Source: an uncultured Pelagibacteraceae bacterium (GTDB lineage Bacteria; Pseudomonadota; Alphaproteobacteria; Pelagibacterales; Pelagibacteraceae). Taken from it: a stretch of DNA of 57,714 nt. The stretch spans positions 1 to 57,714 of the forward strand of contig CACDSX010000006.1 of NCBI GenBank assembly GCA_902555655.1, written 5' to 3'. How positions within the stretch are numbered: the first letter of the stretch is position 1; each line of letters opens with the position of its first letter. The notes under the pieces were generated by a model. The model searched no databases and had not been told where the DNA came from. It was given only the letters and a program-made list of their open reading frames with translations. Shown piece after piece: positions 34,612 to 55,508 of the stretch. The position numbers and the translations under genes were made by a program.

Positions 34612-35169
34612 ATGAAAAAAGTAAGTTTTACTGAAATGAAAAATGGCACCAAAGAGGATTATCTTTTTTTAGATAAACACGAAAAAGATTTTGCAAGCAA
34701 AACTGCAGATAGATTGTTAAAGTTTATGTCAAGACTTACTGAAACACTTGAAGGTTATCAAATTTCAAGATTAGAACACTCACTTCAAAGTGCTACAAGG
34801 GCATACAATAATGGAGAAAGTGAGGAAATGATTGTAGCTACTTTACTTCATGATATAGGAGACGAATTAGCTCCAATGAATCATTCAGAATATGCAGCTG
34901 CAATTCTTAAACCATATGTCACAGAAAAAACTCATTGGATAATTGAAAAACATGGAGAATTTCAAATGTTTTATTATGCTCACCATTTAGGTGGGGACAA
35001 AAATAAAAGAGATAAATATAAAGATCACAAATACTATCAAGATACCGTTGATTTTTGTGAAAAATATGATCAAAATTCATTTGATCCAGATTACAAATCA
35101 TTGCCTCTAGAATTTTTCAAACCATTAGTTAAAAAAATATTTTCTAGAAAACCCTATTCTTTGCTTTAA
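34612..35169 (+). CDS. HD-domain protein with PhnZ-like metal-ligand spacing
   Basis: The 185-residue protein carries His56, the HD pair His80-Asp81, then His91 and His114, followed by a helical C-terminus that opens near YQDTVDFCEKYD. The ligand pattern H-(24)-HD-(10)-H-(23)-H is like that of PhnZ and related HD-type mixed-valence diiron oxygenases, which cleave carbon-phosphorus bonds in aminoethylphosphonate use. A plain HD phosphohydrolase is an alternative. The end (SLPLEFFKPLVKKIFSRKPY) is shared by a widespread uncharacterised subgroup. It follows purF by 3 bases. Confidence 0.7.
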   Translation: MKKVSFTEMKNGTKEDYLFLDKHEKDFASKTADRLLKFMSRLTETLEGYQISRLEHSLQSATRAYNNGESEEMIVATLLHDIGDELAPMNHSEYAAAILKPYVTEKTHWIIEKHGEFQMFYYAHHLGGDKNKRDKYKDHKYYQDTVDFCEKYDQNSFDPDYKSLPLEFFKPLVKKIFSRKPYSLL

Positions 35170-35280: not shown

Positions 35281-36141
35281 ATGAACAATTTATCTGATCA
35301 ACAAAAAGGTTCTTTACTAGCCTTTATTGCTGTAATGTTTATTACTCCTGACTCGTTGTTTATAAGACTTTCAAATGTTGATACATGGGGCTTGGTTTTT
35401 TATAGGGGAATTATTCCATTCTTTACTGTTTTTCTAGGTATGCTTTTAATCTATAAACAAAGTTTTTTTAAGATGTTATTCTCAAGTGGTTATCATGGAC
35501 TTATTTATATAAGTACGTTTAGCATAACAAACATCACATTTGTAGTTTCAATTCAAAATACCAATGTAGCAAATACTCTTCTAATGATAGCTACCGCTCC
35601 GATGTTGTCAGCTATACTTGGTGCAATCTTTTTAAAAGAACCACCAGATCGAAAAACATGGATTTCTATTATCGTAACTTTTTTTGCAATAATTTATATT
35701 TTTTTTGATTCTATCAAGTTGGGTAATTTTTATGGTGACATACTTGGTTTCATAACTGCAATTGGCTTAGCTGTGGGAGCTGTAACAATTCGATCAGCTA
35801 AATCAAAAAATTTAGTACCTTCTGCTGTTGTGGGTAAATTGTTGGTTGCTACTTTTGCTTTATTTTTTATAGAAAGTTTCGTACTTGAAAATAAGGATCT
35901 TATTATTATTCCTTTGATGTGTATTCTTTGTGTTGCGATACCTTTTGTATTAGTGACTATTGCTCCGAGGTTTATTCCTGCTGCAGAAGTGAATTTATTT
36001 TTCCTACTAGAGACTATTATAGGTCCAATCTGGGTTTGGCTTATAATTAAAGAACAACCAAGTATTGAGACCCTCCAAGGAGGAGTAGTTATAATCACTA
36101 CAATTGCGATTCACTCATTTTTGAAGCTCAAAAATTCTTAA
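35281..36141 (+). CDS. EamA/DMT-family transporter
   Basis: This 286-residue inner-membrane protein has about ten hydrophobic helices in two EamA repeats, as in the drug/metabolite transporter superfamily. Conserved stretches are YRGIIPFFTVF, NTNVANTLLMIATAPMLSAILGAIFLKEPP, and the second-repeat counterpart FIPAAEVNLFFLLETIIGPIWVWLIIKEQPS. The substrate cannot be told; family members move amino acids, purines and other metabolites. A related protein with a different sequence is encoded at 42183-43088. AGAGG lies 12 bases before the start. Confidence 0.88.
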   Translation: MNNLSDQQKGSLLAFIAVMFITPDSLFIRLSNVDTWGLVFYRGIIPFFTVFLGMLLIYKQSFFKMLFSSGYHGLIYISTFSITNITFVVSIQNTNVANTLLMIATAPMLSAILGAIFLKEPPDRKTWISIIVTFFAIIYIFFDSIKLGNFYGDILGFITAIGLAVGAVTIRSAKSKNLVPSAVVGKLLVATFALFFIESFVLENKDLIIIPLMCILCVAIPFVLVTIAPRFIPAAEVNLFFLLETIIGPIWVWLIIKEQPSIETLQGGVVIITTIAIHSFLKLKNS

Positions 36142-39835: not shown

Positions 39836-40951
39836 TTATTGTCTGGGAAAATAATCTTTTAATTCCCCTTCTCTGTAAACATCAGCGGTACAACAATGTA
39901 ACCCCCCACCAAAAGCATATGCGTCTCTTAACTCAACTGGTATAACTTCCATGCCAAGTTTATCAAGTTGATCTGCTTGAAATTTTTCACTTTTTTCAAC
40001 ACAAACAGTTTTAGGATCTAAAACTAAAACATTCATAGAAAGCCAAACAGATGAATAACACAATGCTGGTGGTTCATTGTGTGCAGGTTGGGCAGCATCA
40101 ATTATTTTCCATCCATTATTCTCAAATAACTTTCTTTGTTCTTTTGGAAGTCTTCTTTGTGGATTGTTAATTATCAAGCCTTCTTTAATTGGAGTGAAAG
40201 TAGCATCAATATGAATTGGATAAGGATCACCTGGAAAATTTACAGCATGAATTCTATGATTTGTATAGTGTCTTTTAAGCCAATCAATACCTTTCAAATT
40301 CGTTGTAAAACCATGTTGAACAACTAAGTCTTTACCAAATCTTAAAACATCAGCAGCATCAAATAGTGGTTCTTCCTCTGTTGTTACAAAAAATTTATCT
40401 TCTGTCCATTGAAGTCTTTTTTGAATGCCAATTTTATCTGATAAATAATCTTTTCTATAATCAGCATCCGTCAATCTTGGTTTGGGAGCAGACTCATGTC
40501 TCATATTTGGATCTAAATTATAATAATCTTTTAAAAGTGGTCTATAACAAAGATACTCAAACCATCTGCATCTATAGCTCATTGTAGCCTCTAAAATTTC
40601 GTTACCAACAGTTAATAAAACATCTCTTGGGGGCATACAGCCAAACATAGTTTCTGACTCCCAATCTGGAGTAGATGTTTTTTGGTTAAAATTTATAGGT
40701 GATGGTCTATCTACTTTAATTCCTCGTTTAATTAACATATTAGAAAAATCGTCTAATAATTGATTGGCTTTATCTACCGTATCTTTAATTCTCGGACCAA
40801 ACTGTCCTCGCATATCTGAGTCTTCTGGGACTTTCGCATCTAATGCCGGTTCTGGAGCAGGTATACAAGTTCCATCTGCTCTTCCAACTATTACATGCTT
40901 GAGTGGGTCCCATTCATTCCAACTATTTACAATTGCATTATTTTTTTTCAT
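39836..40951 (-). CDS. Glycine amidinotransferase-like enzyme
   Basis: The 371-residue protein matches L-arginine:glycine amidinotransferase (AGAT) across its length: WNEWDPLKHVIVG, PDWES, PRDVLLTVGNEILEA, FEYLCYRPLL, SSVWLSMNVLVLD and others. The catalytic Asp198 (FDAADV), His247 (PIHIDATF) and Cys353 (GGGLHCC) sit at the same spacing as in human AGAT, whose Asp254-His303 distance is also 49. An Ile replaces the Met before the catalytic His. AGAT moves an amidino group between arginine and glycine; the substrate of this homologue is not certain. I start at ATG 40951, one base after the creatinase stop, since 20 upstream codons belong to the creatinase 3' end. Confidence 0.85.
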   Translation of the reverse strand: MKKNNAIVNSWNEWDPLKHVIVGRADGTCIPAPEPALDAKVPEDSDMRGQFGPRIKDTVDKANQLLDDFSNMLIKRGIKVDRPSPINFNQKTSTPDWESETMFGCMPPRDVLLTVGNEILEATMSYRCRWFEYLCYRPLLKDYYNLDPNMRHESAPKPRLTDADYRKDYLSDKIGIQKRLQWTEDKFFVTTEEEPLFDAADVLRFGKDLVVQHGFTTNLKGIDWLKRHYTNHRIHAVNFPGDPYPIHIDATFTPIKEGLIINNPQRRLPKEQRKLFENNGWKIIDAAQPAHNEPPALCYSSVWLSMNVLVLDPKTVCVEKSEKFQADQLDKLGMEVIPVELRDAYAFGGGLHCCTADVYREGELKDYFPRQ

Positions 40952-40952
40952 T

Positions 40953-42170
40953 TTAAATTTTAATAATATTGTGTTCAGGACCAAATGGAAACTTTGTAAT
41001 ATTTTGAGCACTATCTTTGCCGATTACCATGATATCATGTTCACGATAACCACCAGCACCATCTTTCCCTTCTGGAATTAAAATCATTGGTTCCATTGAT
41101 ATGACCATATTTTCTTCTAAAATAGTATCAATATCCTCTCTTAACTCTAAACCTGATTCTCTTCCATAGAAATGTGACAGCATTCCAAAAGAATGTCCAT
41201 AACCAAAAGTTCTATATTGTAAATAACCAAGTTCAGCAAATAATTCATTCAGTTCAATACAAATATCTGAGCATTTAACGCCTGGTTTGATAAGTTCTAA
41301 TCCTCTTTTGTGTACTTTTACATTTGCTTCCCAAGCTTTAAGAGAAGCATCATCGATTTGATCTAAAAAAAGAGTTCTCTCTAAAGCGGTGTAATAACCT
41401 GATATCATAGGAAAAGTATTTAAAGATAAAATATCTCCGCGAACTAATTTTCGATTTGTTTTAGGATTATGTGCACCATCAGTATTTATACCTGACTGAA
41501 ACCACACCCATGTATCCATGTATTCTGCATTAGGGTAAGTCTCTGCAATTTCTCTTTCCATCTTATCTCTACCAGATATTGCAATTTCTAATTCTGAATT
41601 CCCTTCCTTAATATTTTTGACAATCTCTTCTCCACCAATATCAGCAATTCTTGTTCCCTCTTTTATAATCTTTATTTCCTCCTCTGATTTAATCATTCGT
41701 AATTTCATTAATTCTTTTGAAATATCTTTAAAAACTGAAAAAGAAAAAATTGAACCAATCTTGTCTCTTACATCTAACGTAACATGATCATGTTCAATAC
41801 CAATATTCTTTGGAGGATCATCTCTTCCTATAATTGAAACTATTGCCTTTAAAAAATTATCTCTTTTCCAATCCGTATAAATAATATTATCGCAATGTGA
41901 TCTACGCCACGGTTGGCTTGCATCAATATTGGCAGAAATAGTTGAAATCTTCTTATCTGTTATAACACATCCATAAGGACGACCAAAAGAGCAGTAAATA
42001 AAACCAGTGTAATAAGCTATATTGTGCATAGAAGTCAAAATAATCATATCAAGATTATTTTTATCCATTACATCTCGTAATTTATCTACCCTGTGTTTGT
42101 ACTCATTTTCAGAAAAAGGAAGTTTTACTTTGTTTCCATTCTTTAATGTAAAAAAATCAGGTCTTTCCAT
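40953..42170 (-). CDS. Creatinase (creatine amidinohydrolase)
   Basis: The 405-residue protein is an M24-fold enzyme and resembles Pseudomonas creatinase throughout (SFGRPYG, SANIDASQPWRR, TDWKRDNF, MDTWVWFQSGINTDGAHNP, TFGYGHSFG). Known active residues of the Pseudomonas enzyme, His232, Glu262 and Glu358, correspond here to His234, Glu264 and Glu360. Creatinase splits creatine into sarcosine and urea. Metallopeptidase metal ligands of true M24 peptidases are not retained in this family. It sits between a DMT transporter gene (12 bases upstream) and the amidinotransferase (1 base downstream), as one operon. Confidence 0.9.
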   Translation of the reverse strand: MERPDFFTLKNGNKVKLPFSENEYKHRVDKLRDVMDKNNLDMIILTSMHNIAYYTGFIYCSFGRPYGCVITDKKISTISANIDASQPWRRSHCDNIIYTDWKRDNFLKAIVSIIGRDDPPKNIGIEHDHVTLDVRDKIGSIFSFSVFKDISKELMKLRMIKSEEEIKIIKEGTRIADIGGEEIVKNIKEGNSELEIAISGRDKMEREIAETYPNAEYMDTWVWFQSGINTDGAHNPKTNRKLVRGDILSLNTFPMISGYYTALERTLFLDQIDDASLKAWEANVKVHKRGLELIKPGVKCSDICIELNELFAELGYLQYRTFGYGHSFGMLSHFYGRESGLELREDIDTILEENMVISMEPMILIPEGKDGAGGYREHDIMVIGKDSAQNITKFPFGPEHNIIKI

Positions 42171-42182
42171 AAATTTAAGAAT

Positions 42183-43088
42183 CTAATTCAAAGCAATGTA
42201 TCTTTTATTCCACCTCATGATGAGACTATAGTAAATTAGTGAGACAAAAAGAAAAAAGCCTCCTATTATAGTATTGGTTGTTGGTATTTCATTAATACCA
42301 AATAATGGTAGCCATACCCAAAAAATTCCACCAATTACTTCTGTTAAAGACAATAAGGTAAGTTCTGCTGCCGGAATTGCCTTAGAACCTATGGAATATA
42401 AAATTAAACCAAGACAAACTAAAGTTCCATGTAAAGAAAACATTGAGCTGTTGTAGCTTGTTGCGAAAAAAGGTTGATCTTTTATTAAGATCATTATCGT
42501 TGCAAAAACAAAACAAAATAACCCTGCTATTGCGACGGTAGTAAACTTAGGAGTTTCTTTTCTCCATCTAAGTGTAACGGAGAATATTGAAAATCCTATA
42601 GAAGAAGTAATACCAAAAATAAAACCAACAAGAGAATTTTTTTCTGTATTGCCCAACGCCATAATTATTATTCCAACAGTTGCAATCAAAATTGAAATCC
42701 AAACATTTAATGAAATTCTTTCTTTTAAAAATAAGAAAGCCATTAAAGCAGTAAAAAAAGGCATTGCTGCTAAACATAGGAGAGTAATTGCTGCGCTTGT
42801 ATTTGTTATTGAGTAGATAAATGAAATCATTGCGATGCCTAAACCTACTCCACCTAACAGACCAGATTTACCAATTTTTTTATAATTTTTATAAAAATTT
42901 ATTCCCTCTTCAAAATACAAATATAAATTTAAAATGATAAAGATTGTTAAACCTCTTCCAAATATATACTGCCAGGGAACTAGATGGGGATCATTCATGT
43001 ATCTTACTACTAAAGGACCGAAAGACCACATTAGACCAGCGAACAGTACAAGTGGAACTGCTATTTTTTCATTTTTAAGTTCAATCAT
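42183..43088 (-). CDS. EamA/DMT-family transporter in the creatinase operon
   Basis: A 301-residue inner-membrane protein with about ten helices in two EamA repeats, for example the end of the first repeat (TNTSAAITLLCLAAMPFFTALMAFLFLKERI) and the second (AIPAAELTLLSLTEVIGGIFWVWL). It is the first gene of the run with creatinase and the amidinotransferase, separated by 12 bases. By position it may import or export a guanidino compound, creatine or a breakdown product. The substrate is unproven. Confidence 0.88.
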   Translation of the reverse strand: MIELKNEKIAVPLVLFAGLMWSFGPLVVRYMNDPHLVPWQYIFGRGLTIFIILNLYLYFEEGINFYKNYKKIGKSGLLGGVGLGIAMISFIYSITNTSAAITLLCLAAMPFFTALMAFLFLKERISLNVWISILIATVGIIIMALGNTEKNSLVGFIFGITSSIGFSIFSVTLRWRKETPKFTTVAIAGLFCFVFATIMILIKDQPFFATSYNSSMFSLHGTLVCLGLILYSIGSKAIPAAELTLLSLTEVIGGIFWVWLPLFGINEIPTTNTIIGGFFLFVSLIYYSLIMRWNKRYIALN

Positions 43089-43139: not shown

Positions 43140-44396
43140 TTAAAATAAAATTTTATTTGGATGATTGGGGAAAAAACAATCTATAGTCTCCCCTCTCTTA
43201 AATTTAGATTTTCCAGATGGAAACATTGCCCAAACATTTGATTTTACAAAAGATTTAATTCTGAAAGACTCTTGCCCTTTTAAAACCTTTATCACGAATT
43301 TACCATTTTTGGTTGTATAAATTTTGCTTTTAATAAAACGGGTAAAATTTACTTTTTTTATAAATTCTTTTTTTAAAATTGCTTTAATAGCTTTTTCTTT
43401 TTTCATTCCTAATAAATTCTCTAAATAAGGATACACAAAAAATCTAAAACAAGCTGCTGATGAAATTGGGTTTCCAGGAAGACCAAAAATTGCTTTTTGC
43501 TTACCTCTAATTTTTGCAAATAAAATTGGTTTTCCTGGTCTTATGGCTACACTCTTAAAATAATTGGATAATTTAAATTTTTTAATAATTTTAGGAATAT
43601 AATCAAACTTTCCTGCTGAAACTGCACCAGAGGTTATAATAATATCAATTTTTGAATTAAATATTTCTTTTATTTTTTTTTCAAGATATTTTTCGTCTTT
43701 GTCTCTTAAAATTCCTCCATAAAAAAAATTGAAAAAAAAATTTCTATCAATTGATTTTATATAGTGACTATTTGAGTTTCTTACTTTCCAATTGGGAATC
43801 TTCCCTTGGTCAGATATTTCATTACCTGAAGAAAAAAATAAAACATTTGGTATTTTTTTAACTTTTAACTCATTAATGCCTAATGTTTTTAAAGCTAAAA
43901 TATGATTAGACTGTAAAATTGTTCCTTTTTCAATTAACAAATCTTTTTTTTTATAATCTGATCCTTTAAATCTAACATGTTGATATTTGTTAATTTTTTT
44001 ATCAATTAGAATATATTTAGGACTTTTTTTATTTGGATAAAAAACTATTTGTTCTATTGGTATTATAGTATCAAATCCCTTTGGAATTAATCCACCTGTC
44101 ATGATTTCGAAGGTTTGGAATTTCTTAATTTTTTTATTTTTTGGTTTACTTCCAGCAGCGATTGTTCCTAATATTTTAAACAATCTACTATTTTTTTTAC
44201 TCAAATTTTTTGTTTCACTAGAATTAATTACAAAACCATCAAATGCAGCGTTATCTTCAGGAGGATTATTGACTTTACTTTTAATTGTGTTGGCTGTTAT
44301 TCTATTTAAACAGTTATTTGTTTTAACAAATTCATTCTCAATTAAGATTTTTGATTTTTTTAATATTTCAATAGATTTTTTATAGCTTATCATCAT
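43140..44396 (-). CDS. moeA: Molybdopterin molybdenumtransferase
   Basis: MoeA inserts molybdate into adenylylated molybdopterin, finishing the molybdenum cofactor. The 418-residue protein has domains of the MoeA family: PPEDNAAFDGFVI and the GTIAAGSKP segment, IMTGGLIPKGFDTIIPIEQ, and the MogA-like core with VLFFSSGNEI, IIITSGAVSAGKFDYIPK and FGLPGNPISSAACF. It is followed on the same strand by the DMT-creatinase-amidinotransferase genes and overlaps mobA by 17 bases. It serves the formate dehydrogenase coded nearby. Confidence 0.95.
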   Translation of the reverse strand: MMISYKKSIEILKKSKILIENEFVKTNNCLNRITANTIKSKVNNPPEDNAAFDGFVINSSETKNLSKKNSRLFKILGTIAAGSKPKNKKIKKFQTFEIMTGGLIPKGFDTIIPIEQIVFYPNKKSPKYILIDKKINKYQHVRFKGSDYKKKDLLIEKGTILQSNHILALKTLGINELKVKKIPNVLFFSSGNEISDQGKIPNWKVRNSNSHYIKSIDRNFFFNFFYGGILRDKDEKYLEKKIKEIFNSKIDIIITSGAVSAGKFDYIPKIIKKFKLSNYFKSVAIRPGKPILFAKIRGKQKAIFGLPGNPISSAACFRFFVYPYLENLLGMKKEKAIKAILKKEFIKKVNFTRFIKSKIYTTKNGKFVIKVLKGQESFRIKSFVKSNVWAMFPSGKSKFKRGETIDCFFPNHPNKILF

Positions 44397-44994
44397 TCAT
44401 CATTTTAATTGCCTTTTTTAAATCTTCTTCAGTATTAATGTTAAAGAATGGGTCAGGTTTTTTATAGTCAATATTCACTATTTTTACACCAATTGAATCT
44501 GCCCAAATTTCAACTTTTCTCTCACCTTTTAATAAATCGACTTCTAATTTTTCCATTAAATCTAACGACCAAAGACCAAAAATATTATGTCTCGTATTTT
44601 GGTTTTTAATAAAAAAAAGTTTACTTTCATTAATATTTATTTTTTCGTAAAAAAATTTTAGTTCTTTTTTGGTAAAAAAAGGTGTGTCAGTAGGAAATGT
44701 TGAAATCCATTTATACTTTTTATTTTTTTTTTTAATCCATTGCATCGCTGTCAAGACACCTCCCAGAGGTCCTAAACCCATTTGAAAATCTCTTGTACTA
44801 GAAATTTTTTTTGACTGCATAAATTTTATTGGTTGATTTACAACTATGAGGGTTTCATTAAACTCATCCACTATTTCATTGAGTATATAGTCTATCAATA
44901 ATTTACCTTGAAATTTTACTTGAGATTTATCTTGGCCAAATCTCTGTGACTTACCGCCTGCTAGCACAACTCCTAAAATATTGTTAAGATCCAT
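44380..44994 (-). CDS. mobA: Molybdenum cofactor guanylyltransferase
   Basis: MobA transfers GMP to molybdopterin to make the bis-MGD form required by formate dehydrogenases. The 204-residue protein opens with the GTP-binding signature VVLAGGKSQRFGQDKS and has FPTDTPFF as the nucleotide/metal contact. GLGPLGGVLTAMQWI is also typical. The start codon is 44994. It is divergent from the NifU-like gene across 43 bases and overlaps moeA at the 3' end. Confidence 0.94.
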   Translation of the reverse strand: MDLNNILGVVLAGGKSQRFGQDKSQVKFQGKLLIDYILNEIVDEFNETLIVVNQPIKFMQSKKISSTRDFQMGLGPLGGVLTAMQWIKKKNKKYKWISTFPTDTPFFTKKELKFFYEKININESKLFFIKNQNTRHNIFGLWSLDLMEKLEVDLLKGERKVEIWADSIGVKIVNIDYKKPDPFFNINTEEDLKKAIKMMNDDKL

Positions 44995-45037
44995 ATATTA
45001 AAATATAAAACATTAAAATTTGATTTAAAGAATTAAT

Positions 45038-45439
45038 ATGGATTTAAGAATTTTAGAAATTGCTTCTAATACTGAAAATAATAAAGTTATTGATAATTTT
45101 ACACACAAGTCAAAAAATAAAAATCCAATTTGTGGAGATGAAATGGAAATAAGTTTAATTGTAGAAGATGACAAAGTCATAGACATGGGCTATCAATGTA
45201 AATCGTGTGTTTATTGTCAGGCATCTGTAAGTTTACTTTCACAAAAAATTAAAAATAAAAAATTAAATGAAATTAAAGATTTTATTAATTCTTGTGAAAA
45301 TATTTTTGAAAATACTAAAATAGTTTTAGAGAGAAACTGGAAAGATTTTATAGAATTATTGAACAAAAAAAATGCACCTAGAAAAGAATGCTTGCTTCTT
45401 CCATTAAGAACTGTTTTAAAAGCCTTAAAAATATCATGA
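45038..45439 (+). CDS. NifU/IscU-like iron-sulfur scaffold protein in the formate dehydrogenase locus
   Basis: The 133-residue protein matches the N-terminal NifU/IscU fold: Cys32 with Asp34 (NPICGDEME), Cys54 in YQCKSC, and Cys118 in RKECLLLP. Extra cysteines make a CxxCxxC triplet (54, 57, 60), which is unusual for IscU. A separate housekeeping scaffold is expected elsewhere in the genome, so this one may be dedicated to the Fe-S-rich formate dehydrogenase. It ends with TGA overlapping the ATG of the HPP gene (ATGA). Confidence 0.8.
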   Translation: MDLRILEIASNTENNKVIDNFTHKSKNKNPICGDEMEISLIVEDDKVIDMGYQCKSCVYCQASVSLLSQKIKNKKLNEIKDFINSCENIFENTKIVLERNWKDFIELLNKKNAPRKECLLLPLRTVLKALKIS

Positions 45440-45912
45440 TTAAAATAAACAAAGAAATTTTCAAAAAAGCTTTGCTTGCTGGAATTTTCTCGGCATTTAC
45501 GATTGGTGTACTTACTGTTTTAACTTATAAAAGTGCCTTGGGTTTATTCATAGCTGGATCGTTTGGATCCTCAATGGTTTTATTATTTGGTTTTCCAGAG
45601 AGTCCTTTTGCTCAACCAAAAAATGTTTTTTTTGGTCATTTAGTTACAGCACTTGTAGGTGTATTTTTTGTAGTTTTTGTACCATTACCAATGTTTGTCA
45701 ACATAGCATTAGCAGTTGGTGTTGGAATTTTTTTTATGATATTATTAAATATTGTGCATCCTCCTGCAGGTGGAAATCCAATAATGGTGATAATTGGAAG
45801 TGTCTCTTATGATTATTTATTAAGTCCAATTATATTTGGATGTATTATCATTATATCGTTAGCTATTTTAATTAATAAATTTTTACTTAAAAAGAATTAT
45901 CCGTTAAAATGA
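45436..45912 (+). CDS. HPP-family membrane protein
   Basis: The 158-residue protein has four hydrophobic helices and the family hallmark HPP in NIVHPPAGGNP, followed by a helix of small residues. Some HPP proteins are suggested to move nitrite or formate-like anions, and the formate dehydrogenase setting makes a one-carbon anion a reasonable guess. I start at ATG 45436, which overlaps the previous stop by ATGA; an upstream frame to 45388 adds 16 residues from the other gene. fdhD starts 5 bases after its stop. Confidence 0.8.
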   Translation: MIKINKEIFKKALLAGIFSAFTIGVLTVLTYKSALGLFIAGSFGSSMVLLFGFPESPFAQPKNVFFGHLVTALVGVFFVVFVPLPMFVNIALAVGVGIFFMILLNIVHPPAGGNPIMVIIGSVSYDYLLSPIIFGCIIIISLAILINKFLLKKNYPLK

Positions 45913-45916
45913 TTGG

Positions 45917-46756
45917 ATGAATTTTAAGTATAAGGTAATCAAATTTAAAAAAAATAAATTTGAAAAAATTGATGATCTAGTTTCAATAGAAGAACCTTTA
46001 GAAATCTCAATAAAATATAAAGTTCAAAACGAATGGGTGACTAGCAGCCTTTCAATAACAATGAGGACTCCAGGTCATGATGAGGATCTGGTAAGGGGTT
46101 TTTTATTTAATGAACAAATAATTAAAAATTTAGATGAAATAGAAAATATAGAAAGTGTTGGTGAAAAAGTTGGACAATATAAAATTCAGAACAAAATATT
46201 AATTACTCTTAATAATTCTAAAAATATAAATATTTCTAAAATAAAAAGAGATTTCTTAACAAATTCATCATGTGGAGTATGTGGAAAATCATCACTTGAT
46301 GCTTTGGAAATAATCAAAAAAGAAAAAACTTTTAAAGATGAGCCTAAATTAACAAAAGAAATTATAATTAAATCACCTTCAGTATTAAGGCAAAATCAAT
46401 CTGAGTTTTCAAAAACAGGTGGAATTCATGCAAGTGGATTATTTTCAGTTGATGGAAAATTAATATCCCTTAGAGAAGATGTTGGCAGACATAATGCTCT
46501 AGATAAAATGATTGGTAGTGCTTTAAATAAGAACCAAATTGAACCCAAAAACCAATTTATAACATGCTCTGGTCGACTAAATTTTGAACTTGTTCAAAAA
46601 GTTTTAATGACCAATATTGGCTTAATGATTGGCGTAGGTGCGCCAACTAGTCTAGCAATTGATCTAGCGAATAGGTTTGACATGACCTTGATAGGTTTCG
46701 TAAAAGAGGATAGTTTTAACATTTACACAAATAACCAAAAGGTTGTTGTAAATTAA
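45917..46756 (+). CDS. fdhD: Sulfur carrier protein FdhD
   Basis: FdhD transfers sulfur from a cysteine desulfurase to the molybdenum cofactor of formate dehydrogenase, which is required for activity. The 279-residue protein has the CxxC-type motif in SSCGVCGKSS and the conserved GGIHASGLF and REDVGRHNALDKMIG segments. SRLNFE-like SGRLNFELV is also seen. Standard length. It is 17 bases before the formate dehydrogenase beta gene. Confidence 0.95.
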   Translation: MNFKYKVIKFKKNKFEKIDDLVSIEEPLEISIKYKVQNEWVTSSLSITMRTPGHDEDLVRGFLFNEQIIKNLDEIENIESVGEKVGQYKIQNKILITLNNSKNINISKIKRDFLTNSSCGVCGKSSLDALEIIKKEKTFKDEPKLTKEIIIKSPSVLRQNQSEFSKTGGIHASGLFSVDGKLISLREDVGRHNALDKMIGSALNKNQIEPKNQFITCSGRLNFELVQKVLMTNIGLMIGVGAPTSLAIDLANRFDMTLIGFVKEDSFNIYTNNQKVVVN

Positions 46757-46772
46757 TATTGCGGAGATACGA

Positions 46773-48428
46773 GTGTCAAAAAATATTAGTAATTTATCTG
46801 GTAGAGTTGGATTAAAAGATAATCTTTTTAAAAAAATGTCTGAAAATGTCCTTAATGACTCTCCAAAAGATATAAAAGAAATTGCAAAAGAATATAACTT
46901 AGGTGTCTCTACTATTCATGGAGCTGAGAGTTTTTATGAATTTTTAAGGCCTTCTCATAGAGAAAAAAAAGCTTTTGTCTGTAATGGGAGTGCTTGTATG
47001 TGTGCTGGTACTCAAAATAAGTTAAAAGAAACTTTAAAGTCAAAACTTGGAAATGACAAAGTAGGAGAAATGTTTTGTTTGGGTCACTGTTACGAAAATC
47101 ATGCATTTCATTATGATGGTGAAAATTATGCAGGAAAAGATATAGAAAAAATTGACCAAATTTTAAAAGGAGAAGATATCAAACAAGAAAAATTTTTTTC
47201 AAAAAGTTTTGCAACAACTAGTTTTTTAATGGATGATAATCTTTTATCATTAAATCAATTTAAGAAACAATTAAATAAATTTTTAAAAAAAGATAAAAAA
47301 GAAATCATAAAATCACTACTAGACTCTAATCTGACAGGGAGAGGTGGTGCAGGCTTTCCAACTGGAATGAAATGGGATTTTTGTAGTAAAGCAAAAGGTG
47401 ATAAAAAATATGTTATTTGTAATGCTGATGAGGGAGACTCAGGGGCATTTTCTGACAGATATCTTTTAGAAGACCAACCATTAAAAGTGATTTTTGGAAT
47501 GGTAATTTGTGGTTTGGTTATTGGAAGTGATGAGGGAGTTTTATATATTAGAGGTGAATATCCAAAATCTATAGAAGCAATTAATGGATGTATCAACGAA
47601 CTTAAAAAATTAAACTTACTAGGTGAAAATATTTTAGGAAATAAATTTTCTTTTGATTTAAATATTTGTATTGGTCAAGGAGCGTATATTTGTGGAGAAG
47701 AAACTGCATTGATTGCTTCTATTGAAGGTAGACGTGCTGAAGTAGATGTCAGACCTCCTTTCCCGGTCACAGAAGGGCTTTATAAAAAACCTACAGTTGT
47801 CAATAATGTTGAAACTTTGGCTGCAGTAACTGGAATTTTAATAAATGGTGCTGAAAAATTTGCTGCTATTGGAAACAAAAAATCTGCTGGAACAAAATTA
47901 GTTTGTCTCGATAGTTTTTTTAATAATCCTGGTGTTTATGAAATTGATATGGGTACACCAATGAAAAAAATATTTGATAAAATAGGTGGTGGTTACAAAG
48001 AACCTTTAAAAGCATTTCAAGTTGGGGGTCCTCTAGGAGGTGTTGTTCCTCTTAGTGAAATTGACAATCTTAATTTAGACTTTCAGGAATTTACCTCAAA
48101 AGGTTTCATGCTAGGTCATGCTAGTGTTGTTAGTATTCCTAAAGATTTCCCAATGACCGAATATATTCATCATTTATTTGAATTCTCTGCAGAAGAATCT
48201 TGTGGAAAGTGCTTTCCAGGAAGGTTAGGATCTTATAGAGGAAAAGAGATGTTTGACCAAGTTAAGAAAAAAACTGCAAAAATTCCTCTTAAATTACTTA
48301 ACGAATTATTGGTAACAATGAAAAAGGGTTGTTTATGTGCTCTTTGTGGTGCAATACCAACTCCTATAATGAATATCCTAAAATATTTTGGTGATGAAAT
48401 GAAGGATGATATGGTAAAAGACAATTAA
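46773..48428 (+). CDS. fdsB: Formate dehydrogenase beta subunit, NuoE-NuoF fusion
   Basis: This 551-residue protein would take electrons from the alpha subunit to NAD+. Residues about 1-140 form a complete NuoE-like domain with a helical part and a thioredoxin-like 2Fe-2S site (Cys70, Cys75, Cys102, Cys106 in CNGSAC and CLGHC). Residues about 165-551 are NuoF-like with the FMN site GAGFPTG, the NAD site GAYICGEETAL, and the 4Fe-4S motif ESCGKCFPGR plus later Cys. In Rhodobacter the gamma subunit FdsG is separate; here its function is fused. The start is GTG at 46773 with GGAG 6 bases before. The stop overlaps the fdsA ATG by one base. Confidence 0.9.
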   Translation: MSKNISNLSGRVGLKDNLFKKMSENVLNDSPKDIKEIAKEYNLGVSTIHGAESFYEFLRPSHREKKAFVCNGSACMCAGTQNKLKETLKSKLGNDKVGEMFCLGHCYENHAFHYDGENYAGKDIEKIDQILKGEDIKQEKFFSKSFATTSFLMDDNLLSLNQFKKQLNKFLKKDKKEIIKSLLDSNLTGRGGAGFPTGMKWDFCSKAKGDKKYVICNADEGDSGAFSDRYLLEDQPLKVIFGMVICGLVIGSDEGVLYIRGEYPKSIEAINGCINELKKLNLLGENILGNKFSFDLNICIGQGAYICGEETALIASIEGRRAEVDVRPPFPVTEGLYKKPTVVNNVETLAAVTGILINGAEKFAAIGNKKSAGTKLVCLDSFFNNPGVYEIDMGTPMKKIFDKIGGGYKEPLKAFQVGGPLGGVVPLSEIDNLNLDFQEFTSKGFMLGHASVVSIPKDFPMTEYIHHLFEFSAEESCGKCFPGRLGSYRGKEMFDQVKKKTAKIPLKLLNELLVTMKKGCLCALCGAIPTPIMNILKYFGDEMKDDMVKDN

Positions 48429-51196
48429 TGAGTTCTGAAAAAAGAAAAATTGCTTATATAGACGGTAAACCATATGAAATTGGCGCCAATCATACATCTA
48501 TCTTAAAATTTGTTAAAAGCTATGTTGGCGAAAAAAAAGTACCATCATTATGTGATGATCCAAATTTAGCGCCTTACGGTGCTTGTAGAGTTTGTTCAGT
48601 TGAAGTAGCACTAGAAAAAGATGGACCAACAAAAGTAGTCGCTTCATGTCATACTCCAATAGCTGAAAATCAACACGTATTTACAACAAATGACAATCTT
48701 CATAATCTTAGGAAAAACATAGTAGAATTGGTCTTAACTGACCATCCAATGGAATGTAATACTTGTGAAGTAAATAATAACTGTGAACTCCAAACTGTTG
48801 CTAACGACTTAGGTATTTCTGACCATAGATATAATAATCCAAAGCAACACAAAGGTATTCCAAGAGATACTTCCCATGACTATATGAGAATGAACTTAGA
48901 TAATTGTATAAATTGTGGAAGATGTGTAAGAGCTTGTGATGAAATTCAAGGATCATTTGTATTAACAATGTCTGGAAGAGGTTTTGAGTCTAAAATTACA
49001 ACAGATAACAATATGACATTTGGAGACTCTTCTTGCGTTTCTTGTGGTGCTTGTGCGCACACTTGTCCAACTGATGCTATTTCTGATGTTTTTCAGTCTA
49101 AATCTGCTGCCGTAGATAAAAAAGTAAGAACTACATGTTCGTACTGTGGTGTGGGATGTAATTTAGAGACTTCCATTAAAAATAATAAAGTTGTTGCAAT
49201 TGATACTCCAAAAGAAACAGAAGTTAATGCAGGTCATACTTGTATTAAAGGAAGATACGCATTTGGTTTTTACGATCATCCTGACAGACTTAAAACTCCA
49301 CTAATTAAAAGAAGTGGTAAGTTTGAAGAAGCAACTTGGGATGAAGCATACGATTTCATAAAAAAAGAAATGCAAAGAATTGTTAAAGATCATGGACCTG
49401 ATGCATTTGCTGGAATTTCATCAGCAAGATGTACCAATGAAGAAAACTATGTTTTTCAAAAAATGATAAGAGCAGCTGTAGGCACAAATAGTGTTGATTG
49501 TTGTGCAAGAATTTGTCATTCACCTACCGCTTGGGGAATGCAACAAACATTTGGTACGGGTGCTGCTACTAATTCAACTGAAGATATCTATCATGCAGAT
49601 CTGTTTTTAGTTATTGGAGCAAATCCAACTAATGCTCACCCAGTTACAGGTGCAAAAATAAAACAACAAGTTATGAAAGGCAAAAAGCTTATTGTTTTAG
49701 ATCCTATTACTACTGAAGTTGCTCAACTAGCAGACTATCACATTAAACTAAGACCAGGAACAAATGTTGCTGTTCTTAATATGATGTTACATTTTATAGT
49801 GAAATCAAAATTATATAATAAAGATTTCATTAGAGATCGAACCGAAGGTTTTGATAAATTTTTAAAAGAAATTGAAAGACAAGATGTTGATCATTTAGCA
49901 AAAGTTGCTGGTGTTGATAAGCAGCTAGTTAAAGAAGCAGCGATAGCTTACGCAACTGCAAAAAATTCAATGGAGTTTCATGGCTTAGGGGTCACTGAAC
50001 ATGAACAAGGATCAAAAACTGTTATGCTAATTGCTGACCTCGCAATGATTACTGGAAATATTGGAAGAAAAGGAGTTGGTGTAAATCCTTTAAGAGGACA
50101 AAATAATGTCCAAGGTGCTGCAGATATGGGGTGTCAACCTCATCAAGGTGCAGGATATTTTGAAGTAGCAGATGAAAAAAATCAAAAATTCTATAGTGAT
50201 AAATATGGTATTACACATCCAACTAAAGCTGGGCTAAAAATTCCTCAAATGTTTGATGCTGCTATTAAGAAAGAATTAAAAGGAATTTGGATTATTGGTG
50301 AAGACATTGTTCAAACGGATCCTAATAGTGCACACGTGGTTGATGCTATGAATTCATTGGAACTTCTAGTAGTTCAAGAAATTTTCATGAGTGAAACAGC
50401 AAAACTTGCAACAGTTGTTTTGCCAGGAACCACTTTTTTAGAAAAAGATGGAACTTTTACTAATACTGAAAGAAGAGTACAAAGAGTTAATCGTGCAGTT
50501 TCTCCTCTACCAGGTACAAAACCTGATGGAGTAATAGTAACTGAAATGATGCAAAAACTAGGGTTTAATCAGCCAACGTATGATGCAGATCAAGTACTTG
50601 CTGAAATCGCAGATATAGTACCTTTCTTTAAAGGTATAACTCGAGAAAGATTGGGTAAGCTTGGTTTACAGTGGCCTGTAAAGGAAGATGGGACAGATAC
50701 TCAAATATTGCATACTGAAGAATTCAAACTAGGAAAAGGTAGATTAAAAAACTTTGACTGGAAAGAGTCATCTGAAATAGCAGCTAATCATAAAGAATAT
50801 CCTTTAATATTAACAACTAGTCGAGTTTTACAACATTATAATGCCGCTACCATGACAAGAAGAACGAGTAATATTAATATTGTTGATGAAGATGTTTTGT
50901 TGATACATCCTAAAGATGCAATAAATAGAGATTTAAATACAGGTGATATTGGAAGATTGTATTCAGGAAGAGGTGAAGTTGCTTTAAAAGTAGAAGTTAC
51001 TGATAAAGTGAAAGAAGGTATCGTTTTTACAACATTTCATTTTCCTGAACATATGGTCAATATGGTAACTGGTCATGGAAAAGATGAGGAAACTATGTGT
51101 GCAGAATATAAGGTATCATCAGTTCAAGTTCAAAAAATTTCAAATCAATTTAAAACTGAAATACAACCAAAAGAAAATCAAGCTGAAGTAAGCTAA
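48428..51196 (+). CDS. fdsA: NAD-dependent formate dehydrogenase alpha (catalytic) subunit
   Basis: The 922-residue molybdoenzyme oxidises formate to carbon dioxide. In order it has an N-terminal 2Fe-2S domain (Cys near 42-74), a His-Cys3 cluster (HPMECNTCEVNNNCE), two 4Fe-4S ferredoxin motifs (CINCGRCVRAC and CVSCGACAHTC), and the 4Fe-4S site of the molybdopterin domain (TCSYCGVGCNLE). The Mo ligand is Cys363 in ARICHSP (a cysteine, not selenocysteine). The layout is that of soluble FdsA-type enzymes. It is encoded with fdhD and the fused beta subunit, and selO follows after 5 bases. Confidence 0.95.
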   Translation: MSSEKRKIAYIDGKPYEIGANHTSILKFVKSYVGEKKVPSLCDDPNLAPYGACRVCSVEVALEKDGPTKVVASCHTPIAENQHVFTTNDNLHNLRKNIVELVLTDHPMECNTCEVNNNCELQTVANDLGISDHRYNNPKQHKGIPRDTSHDYMRMNLDNCINCGRCVRACDEIQGSFVLTMSGRGFESKITTDNNMTFGDSSCVSCGACAHTCPTDAISDVFQSKSAAVDKKVRTTCSYCGVGCNLETSIKNNKVVAIDTPKETEVNAGHTCIKGRYAFGFYDHPDRLKTPLIKRSGKFEEATWDEAYDFIKKEMQRIVKDHGPDAFAGISSARCTNEENYVFQKMIRAAVGTNSVDCCARICHSPTAWGMQQTFGTGAATNSTEDIYHADLFLVIGANPTNAHPVTGAKIKQQVMKGKKLIVLDPITTEVAQLADYHIKLRPGTNVAVLNMMLHFIVKSKLYNKDFIRDRTEGFDKFLKEIERQDVDHLAKVAGVDKQLVKEAAIAYATAKNSMEFHGLGVTEHEQGSKTVMLIADLAMITGNIGRKGVGVNPLRGQNNVQGAADMGCQPHQGAGYFEVADEKNQKFYSDKYGITHPTKAGLKIPQMFDAAIKKELKGIWIIGEDIVQTDPNSAHVVDAMNSLELLVVQEIFMSETAKLATVVLPGTTFLEKDGTFTNTERRVQRVNRAVSPLPGTKPDGVIVTEMMQKLGFNQPTYDADQVLAEIADIVPFFKGITRERLGKLGLQWPVKEDGTDTQILHTEEFKLGKGRLKNFDWKESSEIAANHKEYPLILTTSRVLQHYNAATMTRRTSNINIVDEDVLLIHPKDAINRDLNTGDIGRLYSGRGEVALKVEVTDKVKEGIVFTTFHFPEHMVNMVTGHGKDEETMCAEYKVSSVQVQKISNQFKTEIQPKENQAEVS

Positions 51197-51201
51197 TTAG
51201 A

Positions 51202-52647
51202 ATGACCATAGGATGGCATTTTAACAATACCTATTCAAAACTATCAAATACTTTTAGAGAAGAAATAAAACCTATTCCTGTAACAAATCCAGAGTTAATA
51301 ATACTTAACGAAAAACTAGCCTCCGAATTAAGTTTAAATTTTTCAAAAATAGATAAAAATGAGCTTTCAAAAATTCTTTCAGGAAATTCTTTGCCAAAGG
51401 GCTCAAACTCTATAGCACAAGCTTATGCGGGTCACCAATTTGGTCATTTTACAATGCTTGGGGATGGTAGAGCAGTATTAATTGGTGAGCATACAACAAA
51501 ATCAAATGAGAAATTTGATATTCAATTTAAAGGTTCAGGTAAAACAGCATTCTCAAGAAATGGTGACGGTCGTGCAGCTTTAGGTCCAATGTTGAGAGAA
51601 TATATTATTAGTGAGGCTATGAATGCATTAAACATTCCCACTACTCGTAGTTTGGCAGTAGTAAAAACTGGAGAAAATATTCAAAGAGAGACATCTTTAC
51701 AAGGTGCTATACTCACTCGTATCGCCTCTAGTCATATCAGGGTTGGTACTTTTCAATATATTGCAGCAAGACAAAAAGAAAATGAATTAAAAACATTATT
51801 AGATTACACAATTGATAGGCATTATCCTGAAATAAAAAATTCAAACAACCAAGCATTAGATTTATTAAATCTTTTAATAGACCGACAATGTAATTTGGTT
51901 GTGAATTGGATGCGTGTGGGTTTCATTCATGGAGTAATGAATACTGATAACATGACAATTTCTGGGGAAACTATTGATTATGGTCCATGTGCATTTATGG
52001 ATACCTATGATCCAAAGACTGTTTTTAGTTCAATAGATCAAACAGGTAGATACGCTTATTGCAATCAACCTGTTATTACAAAATGGAATTTAGCCAGATT
52101 TGCAGAATGTTTACTTCCTTTAATTGATAAAGATAAAGAAAAAGCGATTAAGATAGCTACAGAAACTATTAATTCTTTTGAAAAAAAGTATGAGGAAAAA
52201 TGGATGAACATGATGAGAGATAAATTAGGATTATTTGGTTTGGATGATAAAGATAAATTTCTAATATTAGATCTATTAACTTGGATGCATGAAAAAAAGG
52301 CAGATTATACTAATACCTTTTGTCACTTGATGAACCTTGAGCCTACAAAAAATAGATTATATGAGGACAATGATTTTATGAGTTGGAAAAAAAGATGGGA
52401 GAAAAGATTATTAAATAATAATAGTCCCAAAAAATATTTAGAATTGATGAAAAATAATAATCCAATTGTCATTCCAAGAAACCATAAAATTGAAGAATCC
52501 TTAGAAGCTGCTAATCAAAACAATCTTGAGCCAATCAAAAAAATTCTAAAAATTTTAGAGAAACCTTATGATGAGCAAACAGAAATAAATGATTACCAGC
52601 TACCCTCATCTTCAACTGAAAAATATCAAACTTTTTGTGGAACCTAA
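51202..52647 (+). CDS. selO: Protein adenylyltransferase SelO
   Basis: SelO is a pseudokinase-fold enzyme that transfers AMP to protein side chains, linked to redox control. The 481 residues cover the family in full: the SIAQAYAGHQFGHF segment, the ATP-binding KGSGKTAFSRNGDGRA, the MLREYIISEAM helix, DxG-like NTDNMTISGETIDYGPC and the C-terminal FCGT, which contains the conserved Cys usually near the end. Length equals E. coli SelO. It is 5 bases after fdsA, so it may be expressed with formate dehydrogenase. Confidence 0.95.
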   Translation: MTIGWHFNNTYSKLSNTFREEIKPIPVTNPELIILNEKLASELSLNFSKIDKNELSKILSGNSLPKGSNSIAQAYAGHQFGHFTMLGDGRAVLIGEHTTKSNEKFDIQFKGSGKTAFSRNGDGRAALGPMLREYIISEAMNALNIPTTRSLAVVKTGENIQRETSLQGAILTRIASSHIRVGTFQYIAARQKENELKTLLDYTIDRHYPEIKNSNNQALDLLNLLIDRQCNLVVNWMRVGFIHGVMNTDNMTISGETIDYGPCAFMDTYDPKTVFSSIDQTGRYAYCNQPVITKWNLARFAECLLPLIDKDKEKAIKIATETINSFEKKYEEKWMNMMRDKLGLFGLDDKDKFLILDLLTWMHEKKADYTNTFCHLMNLEPTKNRLYEDNDFMSWKKRWEKRLLNNNSPKKYLELMKNNNPIVIPRNHKIEESLEAANQNNLEPIKKILKILEKPYDEQTEINDYQLPSSSTEKYQTFCGT

Positions 52648-54404: not shown

Positions 54405-55508
54405 TTATAAAACATACGGTTCTGGTCTTGCTTTTTTACCTAAAACTCTTTCTACGGCCATATTTGAAATATCAATAGACTGATAAGCGCCCGTTGTAAT
54501 TAATTCTGTTAAAGCTCGACCTATTCCTGGTGCTTGCATTAAACCTCTTCCAGTAAAACCTGTTGCTAGATAAACATTCTCAAATTTTGGATGTTTTCCA
54601 ACTACTGCATTATTATCAAGCCTATTACAATCGTAATATCCAGCCCATCCACCAGTCAACTTTAATTCTTCCATAGCAGGAATTCTTTGTGCCAGTGCAG
54701 GCCAAACAAGTTCTTCAAAATCATCCCATGCTGGTTCTAAGTCACCTGCATCAAAGACAGATTTTGGTGATCCAGCTAAATATTCTTTTCCCTCTGGTCT
54801 CCAATAAACTCCTGTTGTCAAATCACCAGTTAATGGCATTTCAGGAATATGTTTTGGACACTTTACTCTGAACACAGTGTGTTTTTGTGGTTCAACTGGA
54901 ATGTCTTCTAGCAATTCTTTTGTCCAACATCCAGCTGCAGAAATAATTGTTTTAGCTTTTATTTCAGATAGAGATTTTACTTCTCCTTTTATAAATTGAG
55001 CACCAAGCTCCATTGCTTTACTTTTCAAAGCTCCATGAAACATAAATGGATCAATCCACCCTTCACTTTGATTATCAGTAAATGTTGCGGTTTCTATTCC
55101 ATCACTATTTATATATGGAAAAAATTTTGTTAGTTCTGAGCCTTTAATATTTTTTGTTCCAGCTTCACAAGCTTTATGATTTTCCAATGCTTTATACTGT
55201 TCCTCTGCATGCTCAGGTCCAAACATTAATAAATATCCATTAGTTACCATACTAGCTGTTGGTTTGGGATTTTTTTCTGTTTTAAGTAACTCGGGTATTT
55301 GAAAAATAAACTCTCTAGCAAATTTTCCTAGTAAGATGTTTTCTGTTTGAAAAAATTGTCTTCTAAAACCTCCAAGTGATAATGGAAATGAGGCTGTTTT
55401 ATATGTGGGATCTCTTTCAATTACTTTTACTTTTCTGCCCTCTTTAGACAAAAAATAAGCTGTGGCTGTGCCAATAATTCCACCACCAACTATGACTACA
55501 TCATCCAT
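54405..55508 (-). CDS. FAD-dependent amine/amino-acid oxidoreductase (DAO family)
   Basis: The 367-residue protein begins with an FAD-binding GxGxxG loop (VVIVGGGIIGTATAYFL) and shows the DAO-type segments EGWIDPFMF, ISAAGCW, and the closing GGWAGYYDCNRLDNNAVVG and ATGFTGRGLMQAPGIG. The fold is that of sarcosine, dimethylglycine and D-amino-acid oxidases and FOXRED1-type proteins. No covalent-flavin motif is obvious. Substrate uncertain, but a secondary or tertiary amine is likely. It lies 2 bases before the TspO gene end and 15 bases before the methyltransferase. Confidence 0.85.
   Translation of the reverse strand: MDDVVIVGGGIIGTATAYFLSKEGRKVKVIERDPTYKTASFPLSLGGFRRQFFQTENILLGKFAREFIFQIPELLKTEKNPKPTASMVTNGYLLMFGPEHAEEQYKALENHKACEAGTKNIKGSELTKFFPYINSDGIETATFTDNQSEGWIDPFMFHGALKSKAMELGAQFIKGEVKSLSEIKAKTIISAAGCWTKELLEDIPVEPQKHTVFRVKCPKHIPEMPLTGDLTTGVYWRPEGKEYLAGSPKSVFDAGDLEPAWDDFEELVWPALAQRIPAMEELKLTGGWAGYYDCNRLDNNAVVGKHPKFENVYLATGFTGRGLMQAPGIGRALTELITTGAYQSIDISNMAVERVLGKKARPEPYVL

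Follow-up and report, generated by a model that had tools for sequence, protein, structure and literature searches.

A creatinase and an AGAT-type amidinotransferase paired in SAR11, and a possible catabolic role for the latter

Both halves of the gene pair considered here have described relatives. A SAR11 creatinase is listed as 'Core SG1a' in a paper that also mentions genes converting creatine to glycine, citing Sun et al. 2011 (PMC3686209), and creatine use has been proposed in AEGEAN169 'Ca. Indicimonas' (PMC11366302); the main text of Sun et al. 2011 contains no creatin* or amidino* term (PMC3160333). In the amidinotransferase family, guanidinoacetate (GAA) is called the natural amidine donor for human arginine:glycine amidinotransferase (AGAT) and for CyrA, and an alternative donor for StrB1 (PMC4887976), and AGAT-type reactions are reversible, the constant measured in vitro for hog-kidney AGAT being close to 1 (PMC9950171). 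We describe here a locus at which the two enzyme types meet, in an uncultured Pelagibacteraceae bacterium (GenBank assembly GCA_902555655.1; genome 980 kb, completeness 83.7%). The window analysed is one whole contig of 57,714 nucleotides (CACDSX010000006.1), on whose minus strand genes for an EamA-type transporter, a creatinase and an AGAT-type enzyme follow one another. The pair of enzymes is conserved in the genus where the creatinase is present; the creatine part was already known, such that the initial annotation of this DNA went too far in calling it 'unrecognised', and the AGAT part is new, searches of the open-licence literature having returned, among the papers listed, none on a SAR11 amidinotransferase or on a creatinase-amidinotransferase pair. 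We propose that the three genes form a module that salvages creatine as well as GAA, its unmethylated relative, and give this proposal roughly equal chances of being right and wrong. The features on which it rests are as follows.

43088..42183, minus strand: EamA/DMT (drug/metabolite transporter)-family membrane transporter, 301 aa, first of the trio (Pfam EamA)
42170..40953, minus strand: creatinase (creatine amidinohydrolase family), 405 aa, by homology to 1chm
40951 (ATG)..39836 (stop), minus strand: AGAT-type amidinotransferase, 371 aa, flap DPYPI, by match to human AGAT
41469..41471, minus strand: codon of the creatinase catalytic His234, from the 1chm alignment and the codon read
40214..40228, minus strand: AGAT active-site flap codons D242-P-Y-P-I246, equivalent to human D298-P-N-P-M302 (flap definition from PMC4887976)

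The operon-like arrangement described initially stood when the open reading frames, starts and stops were checked, with intergenic gaps of 12 and 1 bases; an alternative 391-aa frame of the AGAT, starting at GTG, extends into the creatinase, and the ATG at 40951 is taken as the start. The EamA domain of the transporter scores 71 bits against a gathering score of 28. The AGAT is 95% identical to a protein of a Pelagibacteraceae record, so the SAR11 origin assigned to the DNA holds. Differences between orthologues fall mostly at third codon positions (across four comparisons of AGAT, 0.34-0.41 at third and 0.03-0.05 at second positions), which indicates that the genes are under protein constraint.

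The creatinase is, judging by alignment, a full-length homologue of the solved creatinases in which the catalytic residues are retained: residues 4-404 (401 of 405) align with creatine amidinohydrolase 1chm at 525 bits, the top non-creatinase structure match being an Xaa-Pro dipeptidase at 97.5 bits. The same alignment bears out the annotated His234, Glu264 and Glu360 as the catalytic positions, which in 1chm itself we take to be 232, 262 and 358. NCBIfam matches are only to other M24 families, all below cut-off; two alternative identities, ectoine hydrolase (69 bits against a cut-off of 613) and the dimethylsulfoniopropionate lyase DddP (20 bits against 600), were rejected on comparison with the 525 bits to 1chm. 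Relatives of the creatinase also occur in 420 plasmid records (H26-H50), mostly from Klebsiella (264) and Acinetobacter (103), at up to 60.5% identity among the matches listed; AGAT relatives, below 60% identity, occur in 43 plasmid records.

For the third gene product the closest solved relative is human AGAT (287 bits), followed by SxtG (217), HsvA (201) and the inosamine-phosphate amidinotransferase 1bwd (173). The Asp-His-Cys triad is kept in the alignment (D198, H247 and C353 for human D254, H303 and C407), although the equal spacing once claimed for it applies only to the first interval (49 in both), the second being 106 against 104 in human AGAT. Also kept are D110, D249, R266 and S301, which correspond to human D170, D305, R322 and S355; these we take to be substrate-binding residues of the human enzyme, with Y164 presumably a contact likewise.

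How the genes are arranged among relatives was read from 61 genomes, the window's own included, 37 of which belong to its genus. Creatinase matches above 80% identity occur in 13 of the 61; within the genus creatinase is present in 12 genomes and stands directly before AGAT in all 12, such that within the genus the three-gene order is conserved where creatinase is present. The order is nevertheless not fixed, as creatinase inserts into EamA-AGAT: in 11 of 13 same-genus AGAT loci (all but L042 and L043) the gene immediately before creatinase or AGAT is an EamA orthologue, and the core of the genus is EamA-AGAT, with creatinase as an optional insert between the two. A census of 80 AGAT loci (the best loci in named genomes, a choice biased to near relatives, with contig-end loci counted separately) has creatinase directly upstream in 54 and EamA directly upstream without creatinase in 20, the remainder being five cut by a contig end and one in which creatinase and AGAT are separated by a gene of 570 aa. 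The 570-aa protein (L086:6296-8008) resembles tetratricopeptide repeat proteins by eye, and all three genes run in the same direction. In a tree of 42 AGATs, the inner forks of which are moderately supported, creatinase-bearing SAR11 loci nest within creatinase-lacking ones, and one locus that lacks creatinase (G031) is nested among the creatinase-bearing ones; on the simplest reading, EamA-AGAT would be the older unit, into which creatinase was later inserted and from which it was lost at least once. A further genome (G025; L043:509-6528) carries a second AGAT (72%), downstream of which come an additional EamA, a 2-oxoglutarate-Fe(II) oxygenase, a luciferase-like monooxygenase and a thiamine pyrophosphate enzyme.

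The pairing recurs beyond SAR11. In an even set of 385 alphaproteobacterial genomes, AGAT at 60% identity or above is found in 8, any AGAT match in 27 and creatinase in 46; seven of those eight carry creatinase, as compared with 46 of 385 overall (P about 1e-5 without the window's genome, relatedness uncorrected). Across one family (f110, 61 genomes), which may be SAR116-like, AGAT occurs in 14 genomes, creatinase in 25 and both in 10 (Fisher P 0.013, relatedness uncorrected), and the two are neighbours in nine of these ten: divergent in seven (g234), about 300-370 bases apart, and convergent in two (g462), 62 and 107 bases apart by match ends. Creatinases that adjoin AGAT fall into three distinct, supported clades, one each for SAR11, g234 and g462, and those closest in the tree to the g462 creatinase (from g458 and g187) have no AGAT beside them. 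Non-SAR11 genomes with an AGAT at 60% identity or above carry creatinase in 8 of 12 cases, against 1 of 11 for those with distant AGAT relatives only (Fisher P 0.009; a 64-residue fragment at 92% in G690, and matches below 33% identity or of partial coverage, were left out). Three arrangements (same direction, divergent and convergent) with three creatinase clades argue for a working link, and we conclude that creatinase and AGAT are probably functionally coupled.

What the two may have in common is suggested by their other neighbours. In g462 the order runs arginase-family gene, creatinase, PotA-like ATPase, binding protein and two permeases, the last four amounting to a creatinase-linked importer of the polyamine-type ATP-binding cassette (ABC) kind; in the four genomes where AGAT has no match the arginase-family gene adjoins creatinase, and in the two AGAT-bearing ones AGAT sits between them. 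Creatinase and PotA stay 88-96% alike across g462 while the rest of the importer differs, the binding protein being 99% alike between the two AGAT-bearing genomes and 50-52% against the four AGAT-lacking ones, and the permeases 54-56% and 63-65% between the two kinds (three genomes read). An importer of this type also adjoins creatinase in G082, G214 and G312, which have no AGAT match, and is near AGAT, with no creatinase adjoining, in G645 and G806. The binding protein (72% identity or above) occurs in 15 of 56 chosen genomes, and in seven of the 15 (G851, G856, G082, G214, G312, G645 and G806) an importer gene is no more than about 4 kb away from creatinase or AGAT, although the G806 binding protein is itself 6 kb distant. 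A strict rule that AGAT travels with one importer is weakened, as four of the 15 (G082, G214, G312 and G391) have no AGAT match. Since the importer stands beside creatinase, near AGAT or with both, these data suggest that the two enzymes serve the same or similar imported compounds; for SAR11, where the neighbouring transporter is EamA or else, at some loci, an ABC transporter (EhuB-like or Lys/Arg/Orn-like), the suggestion is indirect. In G645 (L192:7090-10798) an aldehyde dehydrogenase gene, an arginase-family gene above the agmatinase cut-off and AGAT stand in a row, with the polyamine-type importer on the opposite strand.

Reading substrates, direction and transport from the genes, their families, the retained residues and the recurrent pairing, we infer the following scheme for the salvage module. 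EamA would carry creatine and/or GAA across the membrane; the creatinase, as its family and residues suggest, would split creatine to sarcosine and urea; and sarcosine would in turn be oxidised to glycine and a one-carbon unit. With a reversible AGAT, GAA taken up and ornithine to hand, the reverse, catabolic reaction would thus give glycine and arginine, such that the amidino nitrogen would be kept as arginine and not lost as urea. The pairing had been called 'odd' in that one enzyme makes a precursor and the other degrades the product, an oddness that disappears if AGAT is run catabolically. SAR11 cells need external glycine or its precursors, a need which the proposed pathway would help to meet.

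For the step from sarcosine to glycine, anticipated in the initial annotation, the same genome holds a SoxB-type sarcosine oxidase subunit (G000:C9:27144-28361; 702 bits against a 529-bit cut-off), and SoxB is above cut-off in 56 of the 61 genomes, this one included. Its assignment, and hence the substrate and flux we ascribe to it, is uncertain, because of two such SAR11 gene sets one has been suggested to encode sarcosine oxidase and the other N-methylglutamate dehydrogenase (PMC3160333). Full-length urease (above 180 bits) is present in 8 of the 61 genomes and in just 1 of the 13 that bear creatinase; the family cut-off is passed in 23, all but the full-length ones at only 20-34 bits in frames of about 440 aa. 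None of full length was found in the window's own genome (83.7% complete, most relatives being incomplete too) or in G012, a complete genome; urea amidolyase was not searched for. Given this rarity, two of the three nitrogens would in most cases be forfeited as urea by the creatinase reaction, the gain would lie in sarcosine or glycine plus one-carbon units, and the proposal of a nitrogen source becomes a weak one. Formate dehydrogenase genes near the trio fit one-carbon oxidation: the window's Fdh-alpha scores 778 bits against a cut-off of 666, with FdhD also above cut-off, and other SAR11 genomes have at the same locus an NAD-dependent formate dehydrogenase (668 bits against 329; L047:10624-11823). 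The SAR11 locus carries either a molybdenum-type set (window 43140-51196) or the single NAD-dependent enzyme; an fdh is under strong selection in offshore genera (PMC12636525). A threonine-aldolase-like gene, another neighbour with a link to glycine, lies downstream of AGAT in 30 of the 80 loci.

Several observations weigh against the salvage scheme, and some of them lend themselves to other explanations. No assay of the EamA, creatinase or AGAT-type protein was found; EamA proteins are often exporters; and close relatives do separate the genes in part, a point raised at the outset, in that AGAT is common without creatinase (matches in 50 of the 61 genomes, against 13), whereas in the 12 creatinase-bearing genomes of the genus creatinase always stands directly before AGAT. 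An AGAT working forwards would turn arginine and glycine into GAA and ornithine, with EamA exporting GAA, or GAA serving as a solute, and the creatinase independent; it would spend the glycine that SAR11 must obtain, and it accounts neither for the recurrent creatinase pairing nor for the importers and arginase-family genes seen in other lineages, so that we consider it unlikely. Alternatively, AGAT might use creatine itself, giving sarcosine and arginine from creatine and ornithine, in which case one compound would have two routes, the creatinase losing urea and AGAT saving the amidino group. This we think rather improbable, since the creatinase would become redundant and we know of no characterised AGAT that uses sarcosine or creatine, although the shared importer type and the near-absence of full-length urease from creatinase-bearing relatives would suit it. 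The active site bears on both of these explanations, as well as on our own: F103 replaces human Y164, and the flap reads DPYPI, with Y244 and I246 for human N300 and M302, such that the glycine-specific flap pattern is lacking, the substrates may differ from those of human AGAT and the flap could conceivably admit an N-methyl group. DPYPI is found in 128 of 144 distinct aligned AGAT sequences from relatives' loci, the other 16 including two human-type DPNPM, one DPFPT (L045) and one DPFPS (L180). The 300-flap is considered important for substrate choice in the family, in which CyrA has D-I-F-P-S and AmtA accepts neither GAA nor glycine (PMC4887976). Saying this, the mismatch with the human flap is not decisive, because CyrA and AoaA, with F and S at these positions, are arginine:glycine enzymes (PMC3684758), and F at the N300 position in both makes glycine/GAA a plausible co-substrate. 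The same comparison, through the F/T and F/S flaps of relatives, speaks for the forward direction, as do the EamA-AGAT core of the genus and the textbook view, forward being taken as preferred in people, with a constant of about 0.0075 derived from serum (PMC9950171).

Settings outside the window's own neighbourhood tell against the scheme in a different way. A DegT/StrS-type aminotransferase lies directly downstream of AGAT in 8 of 10 g234 loci (L198:8028-10382, L246-L252), an adjacency that recalls the StrS/StrB pairing of streptomycin synthesis; in G221 (L202:9283-16839) a run that resembles ectoine utilisation, with EutA-, EutB- and EutC-like, M20 and M24 genes, has AGAT (60%) at its head; a DoeA-like gene adjoins AGAT in G045; and in G004 (L042:3433-11513) AGAT (73%) sits amid betaine-type demethylation genes, in a run that also holds an S-methyltransferase, an 801-aa sarcosine/dimethylglycine-dehydrogenase-like protein, a small methyltransferase downstream of AGAT (at most a candidate guanidinoacetate methyltransferase, GAMT), a Rieske oxygenase and a DddP-like M24 protein. 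AGAT could accordingly act on another amine or guanidino compound (related to betaine, ectoine or a cyclitol, for example), with creatinase one of several osmolyte genes; we give this a small chance, each such setting having been seen in one genus or genome whereas AGAT is paired with creatinases of three clades. The two enzymes might also run a cycle equivalent to arginase with GAA as the carrier, AGAT making GAA from arginine and glycine and the creatinase-family enzyme hydrolysing it to glycine and urea. This would explain the pair by itself and is supported by no result directly; creatinase is known as specific for creatine, the window's genome already carries two arginase-family genes, and we regard such a cycle as highly improbable. 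The importer, for its part, also occurs beside neither gene, and creatinase and AGAT lie apart or on different contigs in eight genomes that have both, namely G039, G363, two of f82 and four of f24 (the last six being G426, G348, G603, G645, G794 and G796); the G039 creatinase is away from AGAT (L052), near genes without evident tie. Together with the variability of the locus across SAR11, where genomes vary in creatinase, in the kind of formate dehydrogenase and in the genes downstream, this separation would be expected of chance neighbours in a variable region, an explanation that is scarcely credible given three pairings of differing orientation and creatinases of separate clades. Creatine synthesis of the vertebrate type was set aside: among ten window proteins scanned there is no methyltransferase beside AGAT, the whole genome not having been searched for GAMT.

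Around the trio, three further genes of the minus strand deserve mention.

43140..44396, minus strand: MoeA-like molybdopterin enzyme (Pfam; NCBIfam 249 bits, below its cut-off of 440)
44380..44994, minus strand: MobA-like protein (TIGR02665, 119.6 bits, below its cut-off of 151.85), overlapping MoeA and adjoining the formate dehydrogenase genes
55508..54405, minus strand: flavin adenine dinucleotide (FAD) amine oxidoreductase, 11 kb from the trio

As the MoeA-like gene lies 51 bases upstream of EamA, and it and the MobA-like gene are on the trio's strand, all five may share one, longer transcript. Promoter and terminator scans (28 hits against 32.1 in shuffles, and 1 against 2.1) show no excess and are uninformative on transcript ends, and no Rfam riboswitch match at gathering score was found in the window or in the loci of nine relatives (9 of 266 loci). 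The FAD amine oxidoreductase is where the initial annotation placed it, although it falls below every curated cut-off listed. Elsewhere in the window, an HD-domain protein (34612-35169) with weak likeness to the phosphonate oxygenases PhnZ/TmpB adjoins a second EamA gene (35281-36141) and a major facilitator superfamily transporter, and a SelO/YdiU family protein (51202-52647) scores 532 bits against the 431-bit cut-off of NF000658.

Returning to the salvage module, we also speculate, with slightly less than even confidence, that in marine alphaproteobacteria the DPYPI-flap AGAT clade is a catabolic amidinotransferase that transfers the amidino group of imported creatine-type compounds to ornithine. 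If so, it would yield arginine plus glycine or sarcosine and allow urea-free use of guanidino compounds, the reverse of AGAT's known physiological role, and would have come together with creatinase on three or more occasions. Were the trio to work as proposed, an enzyme type familiar from creatine synthesis would take on a degradative role, and excreted creatine and GAA would directly supply SAR11, some of the most abundant cells in the ocean, with glycine, one-carbon units and arginine.

Set against known systems, the locus shares with the SAR11 creatine-to-glycine route a creatinase tied to glycine formation, and differs in its amidinotransferase and gene order, the text of that paper having no amidino* term and its available passages no gene order (PMC3686209). 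A route from creatine to sarcosine is likewise proposed for another ocean alphaproteobacterial group, AEGEAN169 'Ca. Indicimonas', in a text with no amidino* or creatinase term (PMC11366302). The creatinase resembles 1chm over its full length, with the His/Glu/Glu and R64/R337 positions kept, and departs from it in adjoining an AGAT-type gene. CyrA and AoaA share with the SAR11 AGAT an aromatic residue at the N300 position, and the latter has relatives with F/T and F/S flaps (L045, L180); theirs is service in a biosynthetic cluster (PMC3684758), whereas the window's AGAT adjoins a creatinase. Human AGAT (1jdw) has in common with it the triad and four substrate-binding positions, at 287 bits; the differences are DPYPI for DPNPM, F103 for Y164, and a setting that in the window appears to be catabolic.

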